A DNA stretch of 64,000 nucleotides, from positions 434,001 through 498,000 of the forward strand of contig JAHQRK010000020.1 in assembly GCA_019828595.1 (NCBI GenBank), in the 5' to 3' direction. The translations under genes and the position numbers were made by a program. Below, piece after piece: positions 4,984 through 9,020 of this stretch. Each line of letters opens with the position of its first letter. Positions within the stretch are counted from its first letter, which is position 1. The DNA comes from Aphanomyces cochlioides (taxonomy: Eukaryota; Oomycota; Saprolegniomycetes; Saprolegniales; Verrucalvaceae). The notes under the pieces were generated by a model, which made no database searches, was not told the origin of the DNA, and was given only the letters and a program-made list of their open reading frames with translations.

Positions 4984-6932
4984 CTACTTATGGTTCCATT
5001 GGACTAGCGTCATGCCATCCCACATGGGCACAACAAAGCTCCGTGTGCGCTGATCTTGAGCCACGAGTTGGTTCAACTTGACGAGTTTTTGTGCAATCTT
5101 GTCCTTGGGGTTGCCATTGCCGACAGCTTGATCGACGACTTGACCTCGGAAGAGAGTGTTGTCAAAGACCACCATACCATGTTTTGAAAGCAAGTTCAGG
5201 TCGAGAATCGTGTCATACAAGGCCGTGTAACTTGACTTATTGCCGTCGACAAAGATAAAATCGAATTGACGATGTGCCCGGCCCATTTCTTTCACCAGAT
5301 CCAAACCATCTTGAAGACGAACATCGATAGCAATCTTGGCATTGTCAAAGTATTTCTTCGTCCACTCGACAGCAGCAGGATCAACGTCGCACGTGATGAC
5401 ATTCTGCGGCTTTGGAACTGCCAAGGCCATGGCCAAGGCTGAGAAACCAGTGAAGCAACCAATTTCAAGGACGTTTTCAGCTCGCACGGACTGCACGAGG
5501 AATTGCAAGTACAGGGCTTGAGCATACGGCACCATCTTGGCTGTCATGGATTCCGGCCAGTGGTTACTGATTGCCGCACTGAGTTTTTCGAGTTGGAGGT
5601 TCTTGGAGGCTGATTTAATCGATGCATGATCGACGATGTAGTTGTTCAGGTCATCCGACGGCACGCATTGATATGTCGAGAACGATCGCGCCGATCGAAT
5701 AAACCCAGGACGACGCAGACGACCGTTTGGCACCAAATGGTGTTGAAAATGATGGGCGTTCTGTTTGGCAAATGCACGCCGTTCATCCGGCGACATATCT
5801 TGCATTTTGTTCATGATGGATTGGCAACGTGTGGAACAAGCACCTTGAAAGGCTTGGGTGCATGCTGCACATTGTATCACAAGGCCATGGCAAAGCGTAT
5901 TGGAACAATTGGTGTGAGTGTTGCAAGGAGCGCCGCACGTATAGCACATCGAGAGTACATCTTCTGTGATGGTTGTGTTGGCGTTGGAAAGACGCTGGTC
6001 AAAGACAAAGTTTCGACCGCGAAATTTCGACTCGACGTTGGTTTCTTTGACATATTCCGCGTAGTGAACAATACCTCCTTGAAGTCGTTGGACGTCAGTG
6101 TATCTACAATCAAACTAACTCAACCTCGATCCTGTGGTCTGTGGTCGTACCCTTTCTGTGTCAAGTACGCGCCAACCTTTTCGCATCGAATACCGCCAGT
6201 GCAGTAAATCATACAAGTTATATCTTTGGACGTGTTTTCAAGAATTTCGTCCAACGTCTCGAAGGTCTCCTTGAAGGTTTCAACCATGATTCGCTCTGCG
6301 CCGTCAAAGCGACCAACATCATGCTCGTAGTAGTTTCGACAGTCAAATATACGCTTAGGACGGCTCGTATCGCTTAATGCATTGTGCCATTCCTGAGGTG
6401 AGAGCTCTTTACCTCGGTAAGACATGTCGAGAGGCTCCGTCAGGCCGTCGTTTGCAAGACGTGGTCGTACACGGATATGGAGTGTGTGAAAGGGTGGCCT
6501 GTCGTTGTTTTCTTCAGTGAGTTCGCCGCCTGAGTTAAAAAAGACGCCTTGAAACAGTGGGTGTGGATGGGTTTCCAAACATGCTCGAAAATCGTAATAC
6601 CTTGTCGCGGGGACTGTGATTTGGGCATTGATGCCTTCGTGCGCGATATAGACGCGGCCCAAAACCCCAAATTCACTCCACTTCTGAAGCATTGACTTGC
6701 GCAGCATGGGTAATTCAGCTGGCTCGACTTGCATATACTTGTAAAACGAGATGTACTGTTGTCGAGACGACGTTTCGTTTGACGCATGAAGAGTCGATGA
6801 AAACCGTGCAGTTGAAGCTGCAGATCCCGCAGGACAGTTTGATGATACAGCGTGTAAGTAGGATAGAAGTGGTGCTTGTCGGATCCACGGCACGGTTTCA
6901 ACACGCCGCAACGAGATAAGACGGCTTAGCAT
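4984..6932 (-). CDS. Fusion of TrhO-type tRNA U34 hydroxylase (rhodanese) and class I O-methyltransferase
   Basis: Two exons (6932–6151 and 6103–4984) joined across a 47-nt GT–AG intron give 633 residues; the junction restores QKGYTDVQRLQGGIVHYAEY. Residues 1–50 look like a mitochondrial presequence. Residues ~58–355 are a complete TrhO (YceA/UPF0176) protein: RVYIAHEGINAQ, the rhodanese loop CTGGIRC with its catalytic Cys at 244, and the Cys-rich C-terminal zinc-like module (Cys 314–354). Residues ~410–633 are a Methyltransf_3 O-methyltransferase: SAM loop EIGCFTGFS (474–482), FVDGNK with Asp 546 and DNTLF with Asp 574 as metal ligands. TrhO makes 5-hydroxyuridine at tRNA wobble U34. In Bacillus the next step, to 5-methoxyuridine, is made by TrmR, a methyltransferase of this same family. 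A bifunctional mo5U34 synthase, probably mitochondrial, is therefore inferred. Another small-molecule or catechol-like substrate for the methyltransferase half cannot be excluded. The upstream ATG at 6980 would add 16 residues and spoil the presequence. Confidence 0.9.
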
Positions 6933-7694: not shown

Positions 7695-9020
7695 ATGCGT
7701 CTGACGGCAGAACTCATTTTGAATGCTCGTTCACATATCAATCCTCTGCGGGAAAGGGAGTTAGATCTGCGAGGTACGGCATTTTGGGCTTGATAAGTGA
7801 TGTTAAATGACTATAGGGTTGAAAATCCCAGCGATTGAGAATTTGGGCGCGACCAAAGTACGTTCGGTCTTGTATGTCGGAGAGGACTAAAAAGAGGCTT
7901 GCCTCGCGCTGAACAGGATGGATATGATTGCTTGGACATGTCAGACAACGAAATCAAGAAGTTGGAAAATTTCCCACGCCTTAAACGGCTTCGAATGCTC
8001 TTGCTCCATAACAACAAGATCAACCGCATCCAAGACAACTTGACTGAATCAATCCCAAACCTCGCCGTGCTGCTCATGACAAATAACAGCATTGCCAATC
8101 TCACGGATGTTGACGCGCTCCGTTGCTTTGACTATTTGGATATCCTTTTCTACATTGTTTATCCTCACTTGATCCTCCTCGATAAATAGTTATCCTTGAC
8201 CTCCTAGCACATACCCTCTCACTGATTGGCAACCCCGTCACGCGCAAGTCGTACTACCGCGAATACGTCATCCACACGCTGCCCAACTTGCGAGTGCTCG
8301 ACTTCAAGAAAATTCGACCAGTCGAGCGTGAAGAAGCTGCTCGTTTGTTCAATTCTCTTGCAGGAAAGAAGATTGTCGAAGGTGACACTAATGCAGATGT
8401 TGGTGCTCCTCCACCACCTGCAGCTGCACCTCCAGCCCCCACGACAGCAACTCGGCCAACATTGAACGAACTAAAGACTGCGATTTCCAACGCCAAATCT
8501 GTCGAGGAAGTTGAGCGACTCGAAGCACAAATCAAGGTATTTCCATCTACGCATATTGTGTGTCGTGACTCCGTGTCCATTTTAGTCTCTCTCTCCTCCT
8601 CGGCAGCACCAGCAACCCCCACCTCCACCACCAGCTATTCCGTCCCCAAAGAAAGAGCGGCAACATCCAGTCGGTGCTCCTGAAGCTGTGTTGACACCCA
8701 AGAAAGAAGCTGCGTCGCCCAAGAAGGAACCTGTGAAGGCTCGTAAGGCATCACCACGAAAAGCTCCAGCAGCTGCTGCGCCAGATGACATGGATGTCGA
8801 TGAAGAGCCTCCCAGTGGAAATCATCACGAAGAATCAGCTCCAGCAGTAGTCATATCGACGCCAGTGAAGTCACCAGCAAAGCGCTCCAAGCCAGCTACA
8901 CCAGCTTCATCGCTCAAAGTGACGGAACTCCGCGACGAGCTCAAACGTCGAGGGCTGTCTACGAAAGGTAACAAGGCAGAATTAGTGGCGCGGTTGGAAG
9001 CAGCCGATGAAGCTCAATAA
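7695..9020 (+). CDS. U2 snRNP component U2A' (LRR protein) with C-terminal SAP domain
   Basis: U2A' binds U2B'' and U2 snRNA in the spliceosome. The start ATG at 7695 opens MRLTAELILNARSHINPL and is followed, after a 43-nt intron (7774–7816), by the family motif KIPAIENLGATK. A 59-nt intron (7858–7916) leads to SDNEIKKLENFPRL and LLLHNNKINRI leucine-rich repeats, then NPVTRKSYYREYVIHTLP and LRVLDFKKIRPVEREEA, all matching U2A' closely. The junction between about 8115 and 8210 is unresolved: the best canonical fit removes about 8118–8185 but lengthens the last repeat by a residue. A 49-nt intron (8537–8585) precedes a Pro-rich, Lys-rich tail ending in a SAP motif (KVTELRDELKRRGLSTKGNK), a DNA/RNA-binding helix pair. 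Canonical U2A' lacks a SAP domain. It is a core spliceosomal gene, so it is expected to be constitutively expressed. Confidence 0.88.

Follow-up and report, generated by a model that had tools for sequence, protein, structure and literature searches.

Can one eukaryotic protein carry out both of the steps that lead from uridine to 5-methoxyuridine (mo5U) at the wobble position, U34, of transfer RNA (tRNA)? The question is raised by a gene of the oomycete Aphanomyces cochlioides, found on the minus strand of the stretch analysed here (the window: 64,000 nucleotides (nt) of contig JAHQRK010000020.1, positions 434,001 to 498,000). In its product a complete TrhO, the oxygen-dependent tRNA U34 hydroxylase, precedes an equally complete metal-dependent O-methyltransferase (OMT). 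We consider it probable, at roughly 60%, that the gene product is a bifunctional mo5U34 synthase imported into mitochondria. The features of the gene, in window coordinates, are these:

4984..6932, minus: whole gene, TrhO-OMT fusion of 633 amino acids (AC1031_009278); open reading frame and homologue match
6151..6932, minus: exon 1, 782 nt; splice reading
6104..6150, minus: intron, 47 nt, GT..AG; splice reading, spliced product identical to the public model
4984..6103, minus: exon 2, 1120 nt including the stop; splice reading
6771..6932, minus: N-terminal extension, residues 1-54, disordered, arginine-containing, putatively presequence-like
6462..6758, minus: UPF0176_N, acylphosphatase-like domain of TrhO, residues 59-157; Pfam
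6058..6392, minus: Rhodanese domain, residues 181-276, split by the intron; Pfam
6183..6203, minus: TrhO active loop CTGGIRC, residues 244-250; alignment
5821..6021, minus: Rhodanese_C, residues 289-355, eight of its cysteines unchanged across 35 fusions; Pfam and alignment
4999..5613, minus: Methyltransf_3 OMT domain, residues 425-629; Pfam

The gene runs from an ATG at 6932-6930 to a TAG at 4986-4984, and excision of 6150-6104 leaves 1902 nt in frame, which is 633 codons and a stop. Without splicing, the frame of exon 1 closes at 6120 and that of exon 2 is open from 6114 only; a single open frame of 376 codons spans the end of TrhO and the entire OMT. The predicted product is identical (100% over 100% of its length) to AC1031_009278 of A. 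cochlioides (NCBI/nr; P0001), and the 47-nt splice is supported by the sequence, the public gene model and relatives. Pfam E-values for the 633-residue protein were 1.7e-17 (UPF0176_N), 4.3e-10 (Rhodanese), 4.3e-20 (Rhodanese_C) and 4.5e-43 (Methyltransf_3). An earlier account of the window, the sequence-only reading, had described one gene whose halves are joined in frame through the intron, a complete TrhO with its CTGGIRC loop, and a complete Methyltransf_3 enzyme with S-adenosylmethionine (SAM) and metal motifs. These descriptions were borne out by the match to the public protein, the three TrhO domains and loop, and OMT site residues that are invariant in 35 fusions (alignment A1, from which P0026 was omitted).

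The sequence-only reading had also proposed that the spread of the fusion be traced. A homologue search, in which scoring covered the 7998 candidates with most words in common, gave 4189 matches with E ≤ 0.001, of which 120 were listed. The TrhO-OMT fusion is real and conserved, beyond chance or a single faulty gene model, because all four domains occur in 36 of these 120 homologues, including P0089, a protein of transcriptome source (MMETSP) marked type:complete; three more (P0030, P0032 and P0093) have the OMT with a partial TrhO. Among the listed homologues, the named owners of the fusion are the oomycetes Aphanomyces, Achlya, Saprolegnia, Pythium, Globisporangium and Phytophthora and, outside the oomycetes, Phaeothamnion confervicola and the diatom Nitzschia inconspicua. 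When the OMT half alone served as query, all seven matches among proteins of 348-1108 residues were TrhO fusions. In a TrhO tree built with 20 of the 36 fusions, the TrhO halves formed one clade (support 100/99) that also held standalone TrhOs from two Phytophthora and two downy mildews. The simplest reading of these trees and matches is that one old fusion was inherited within stramenopiles; diatom-type OMT halves match that of the window only weakly in pairwise comparison (36-46 bits), which leaves room for another fusion event.

The domains of the TrhO half scored above the Pfam gathering thresholds (UPF0176_N 64.0 against 26.2 bits, Rhodanese 40.4 against 22.2, Rhodanese_C 72.3 against 26.9). 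Residues C200, T201, G203 and R205 of Escherichia coli TrhO were found to be essential by Sakai et al. 2019 (PMC6599085); the window protein has C, T, G and R in these columns, as do 36 of 36 fusions. At the basic positions K112 and R114 of the E. coli enzyme the window protein has arginine twice. Across the 36 fusions the first column holds R in 33, K in two and V in one, and the second R in 32 and K in four. The eight Rhodanese_C cysteines are unchanged in 35 fusions.

The most economical reading of the conserved domains is a two-step route from U34 through 5-hydroxyuridine (ho5U34) to mo5U34. The protein would be imported into mitochondria, where its TrhO module would use O2 to hydroxylate C5 of U34 and its OMT module, with SAM and a divalent metal, would methylate the new 5-OH to give mo5U as the end product. 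Likely substrates would be the mitochondrial tRNAs Val(UAC), Ala(UGC), Ser(UGA), Pro(UGG) and Leu(UAG), each of them the sole tRNA found for its four-codon NYN box.

These candidates come from the mitochondrial contig C46, which was found by COX1 and of which 100 of 124 kb were examined. Because the sequence of the contig is repeated, the 50 tRNA matches returned by ARAGORN collapse to 25 genes, with 23 anticodons among them. Each of the five NYN boxes, Val, Ala, Ser(UCN), Pro and Leu(CUN), has a single U34 tRNA, and because bacterial 5-oxyuridine-type modification (xo5U) serves NYN boxes (PMC6599085), the enzyme and the mitochondrial tRNA set fit each other. Codon usage was taken from 31 open frames, each 120 codons or longer, in one C46 unit, some of the frames being of doubtful identity; the U-ending codon was the commonest in all five boxes (for example GTT 185, GTC 4, GTA 141, GTG 24). 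The 100 kb yielded no gene for tRNA-Thr, yet the 31 frames contain 327 Thr codons, so that this tRNA would have to be imported from the cytosol. As a separate observation, in the mitochondrial CGN box the sole tRNA detected carries the anticodon GCG (L031:460-535), yet 25 CGA and two CGG codons occur.

Which METHYLTRANSFERASE the fusion bears is a matter of the placement of its OMT half. The half has the Methyltransf_3 fold with the conserved SAM and metal sites of TrmR: D547, D575 and N576, which we take to be the metal-binding residues, and the SAM-motif glycines 476 and 480 are invariant in 35 fusions. Fold and sites are common to the whole OMT family and are therefore unspecific for TrmR. 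The closest PDB sequence matches were Synechocystis 3cbg (2e-31), 3r3h (1e-28) and 3tr6 (3e-28), with further matches to COMTD1 (2avd, 4e-20), TrmR (8k1f, 3e-12) and Bacillus subtilis YrrM (5zw3, 5e-10).

An OMT tree of 80 rows drew on 25 of the 36 fusions with all four domains and on 26 of 52 OMT-search matches (P0122-P0147). In this tree a TrmR clade without any fusion (support 98/91) comprised B. subtilis, Listeria, B. halodurans, S. aureus, Fusobacterium, two Clostridia and two others. Its Listeria member is annotated beside udk and its Monoglobus member beside mltG, a gene order like that around B. subtilis yrrM. For approximately unbiased (AU) tests, P0122 and P0123 were counted as fusions (27 rows) and P0146 and P0147 as TrmR (10 rows); the latter assignment was made after the tree had been viewed, while the TrmR and caffeoyl-CoA unions had been named beforehand in the sequence-only reading. 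Uniting fusions and TrmR in one clade cost 40.2 log units (AU p 0.029), and uniting fusions with two plant OMT rows (caffeoyl-CoA) cost 45.6 (AU p 0.012); both unions are moderately rejected. The OMT halves formed one clade (support 100/93) with some bacterial OMTs, from Prevotella, Bacteroides, Bernardetia and Nostoc (Bacteroidota being three rows), and an exclusive fusion clade was neither shown nor rejected (AU p 0.254). A profile of the fusion OMT halves scored 216 bits against the free-standing Nostoc protein, 165-200 against most other SafC-type bacterial rows, 169-178 against Bacteroidota, 140-152 against plant rows and 108-121 against eight TrmR-labelled rows. The Bacteroides OMT (Bacteroides finegoldii) sits between pyk and rbfA, which encodes a ribosome-binding factor. 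The observations on the Bacteroidota OMT in the B. finegoldii and Prevotella records concern L020:1483-2466 and L014:2986-3621.

We conclude, with moderate confidence from these sequence comparisons, that the OMT half is not an orthologue of TrmR. The label "TrmR family" of the sequence-only reading, like "trmR" in Sakai et al. 2019, is true of the broad Methyltransf_3 family only; it survives at the Pfam level and fails as a statement of orthology. That reading had also said that a grouping with small-molecule enzymes rather than TrmR would speak against it, and the tree falls in between, with a Nostoc relative beside a dehydroquinate-synthase-like gene and yet no union with plant caffeoyl-CoA enzymes. 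What remains of its bifunctional mo5U34 synthase is an intact, conserved TrhO-OMT polypeptide with invariant catalytic residues; TrmR orthology and novelty are lost.

Several points, the placement outside TrmR among them, weigh against a mitochondrial mo5U34 synthase. The NCBIfam equivalog NF001133 (cut-off 170 bits) gave 141.6 and 32.6 bits with the exon pieces scored separately. The relative orientation of the TrhO and OMT modules is unsure in the predicted model (pTM, the predicted template modelling score, 0.58), and the likeness of the window protein's N-terminus to a mitochondrial presequence is judged by a composition rule. The Prevotella record with a related OMT has no UPF0176_N (TrhO) match. 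The Nostoc OMT adjoins a gene annotated as 3-dehydroquinate synthase, and pairs of an OMT and a dehydroquinate-synthase-like gene are familiar from mycosporine synthesis. Plain U34 is able to read four codons in some mitochondria (PMC6599085). Rv0187 was active on free ho5U and catechols with no significant activity on ho5U-tRNA, while TrmR had no significant activity on free ho5U (PMC6543040); because Rv0187 methylates free ho5U and not detectably ho5U-tRNA, activity on tRNA does not follow from the family fold.

The alternative that survives best draws on several of these points and on the small-molecule OMTs among the related structures: the TrhO half would make ho5U34, and the OMT half would methylate another target, such as an enediol- or catechol-like small molecule or another RNA site, the two sharing targeting and not a pathway. 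We regard this as unlikely. The OMT stays associated with TrhO across oomycetes, Phaeothamnion and a diatom, and Bremia lactucae has the two as separate proteins with consecutive tags, CCR75_007160 (TrhO only) and CCR75_007161 (OMT only), possibly a natural splitting of the fusion. Metal-dependent OMTs of this family use a geometry of neighbouring oxygens such as the TrhO product offers, and the metal site would suit, for example, O4 and O5 of ho5U.

Less likely again is that mo5U34, or another xo5U, is made in cytosolic tRNAs, or in plastids in algal lineages, and not in mitochondria. Residues 1-54 are disordered in the predicted structure, with basic and few acidic residues. A start methionine and at least 25 residues ahead of the TrhO core are present in 28 of 35 aligned fusions, the N-terminus being short or incomplete in the other seven; 23 of the 28 pass, and five fail, a rule (K+R ≥ 4 and D+E ≤ 2 in the first 40 residues) whose thresholds were set after the list had been viewed. 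P0089 and P0094 have about 310 residues ahead of the core with an early hydrophobic stretch, which in some algae could point to the plastid, and not the mitochondrion, as the destination. TrhO relatives occur elsewhere in eukaryotes, as human TSTD2, whose function is not known according to a review of human rhodaneses, and as plant homologues (PMC10135228, PMC10298058). Against a cytosolic or plastid site stand the presequence-like N-termini and the further TrhO-like loci without OMT in the same genome. Moreover, cytosolic U34 is normally occupied by an Elongator-type modification.

The 76-Mb assembly has one Methyltransf_3 match, the window gene, and five UPF0176_N loci; a profile search of it gave zero matches to Peptidase_U32 (TrhP-type). 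Three of the four other TrhO-like loci (C2, C23 and C35; C3 was left out) entered the TrhO tree and fell apart from the fusions on long branches. Phytophthora sojae and P. citrophthora each have a fusion plus a standalone TrhO, on contigs of equal length; over 380 residues the P. sojae pair shows 77% identity. Phytophthora seems to have a second TrhO copy that lacks the OMT and is near the fusion in sequence; the rows behind this and the Bremia observation are P0009, P0012, P0020, P0037, P0038, P0045 and P0123. Elsewhere in the window, plus-strand leucine-rich-repeat frames (7839-9020; LRR_9, U2A'-like reading) are closely followed by a SAP-domain frame, possibly as one joined gene.

That the OMT half is inactive, leaving a ho5U34 hydroxylase only, is very improbable given SAM-motif and metal-site residues that are invariant in 35 fusions. 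That the gene model wrongly merges two adjacent genes is scarcely credible, given the 376-codon open frame and the agreement of other genomes and one transcriptome-derived protein, although some single models may merge tandem copies because the TrhO half of P. cactorum P0009 groups with standalone TrhOs.

The sequence-only reading took the fusion to be new, and here it was overtaken: Sakai et al. 2019 printed a yceA-trmR fusion in P. sojae, P. ramorum and Phaeodactylum tricornutum, in one sentence and a figure panel that call the species bacterial, and from TrhO homologues predicted xo5U-type modification in eukaryotes (PMC6599085). As far as the available text of that paper goes, the compartment, substrate and OMT clade of the fusion are not discussed. 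The present analysis adds a phylogenetic position for the OMT half, its occurrence as a single copy, a likely compartment and a set of candidate tRNAs. In the open-licence literature we found neither a test of the fusion's product nor any account of mo5U from oomycetes or diatoms, some of the searches being too broad to show absence; for ho5U with Phytophthora we found only Sakai et al. 2019. Other sources describe 5-hydroxyuridine derivatives as specific to bacterial tRNA (PMC10516636), assign ho5U to bacteria and eukaryotes (PMC7694415) or, in a coconut survey, list it with TrhO homologues (PMC10298058). Because the "trmR" of the published fusion identifies a family and no more, methylation of ho5U may have more than one origin. 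We tentatively propose, at a little under even odds, that stramenopiles make organellar mo5U34 by a single fused enzyme whose OMT was recruited separately from TrmR, as a second origin of ho5U34 methylation. If a mitochondrial mo5U34 synthase is the correct reading, a eukaryotic organelle would have an xo5U-type wobble modification, and the gene offers a direct place to look for it: a single protein with a likely compartment and five candidate tRNAs, and with Phaeodactylum as a tractable relative.

Among known systems, TrhO (YceA) shares with the window protein all three domains, the CTGGIRC loop, the basic surface positions and the fold, and differs in lacking the C-terminal OMT and the N-terminal extension. 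The tRNA ho5U34 O-methyltransferase TrmR (YrrM) is free-standing, unlike the fused OMT half, falls in a separate clade and is a weaker match (3e-12 and 5e-10 against 2e-31 for 3cbg). The broad group of cation-dependent OMTs (SafC, 3cbg, COMTD1, caffeoyl-CoA enzymes and Bacteroidota OMTs) provides the best PDB matches, and its Bacteroidota rows share the clade of the fusions; these enzymes are free-standing and their substrates are small molecules or unassigned, and the plant caffeoyl-CoA enzymes do not form a sister group to the fusion OMT halves (two plant rows, p 0.012). The yceA(trhO)-trmR fusion of Sakai et al. 2019 has these two modules in one gene, TrhO and then Methyltransf_3, and differs in species only; P. 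sojae P0020 and P. ramorum P0016, tied to it by species and domains and not by accession, align with the window protein.
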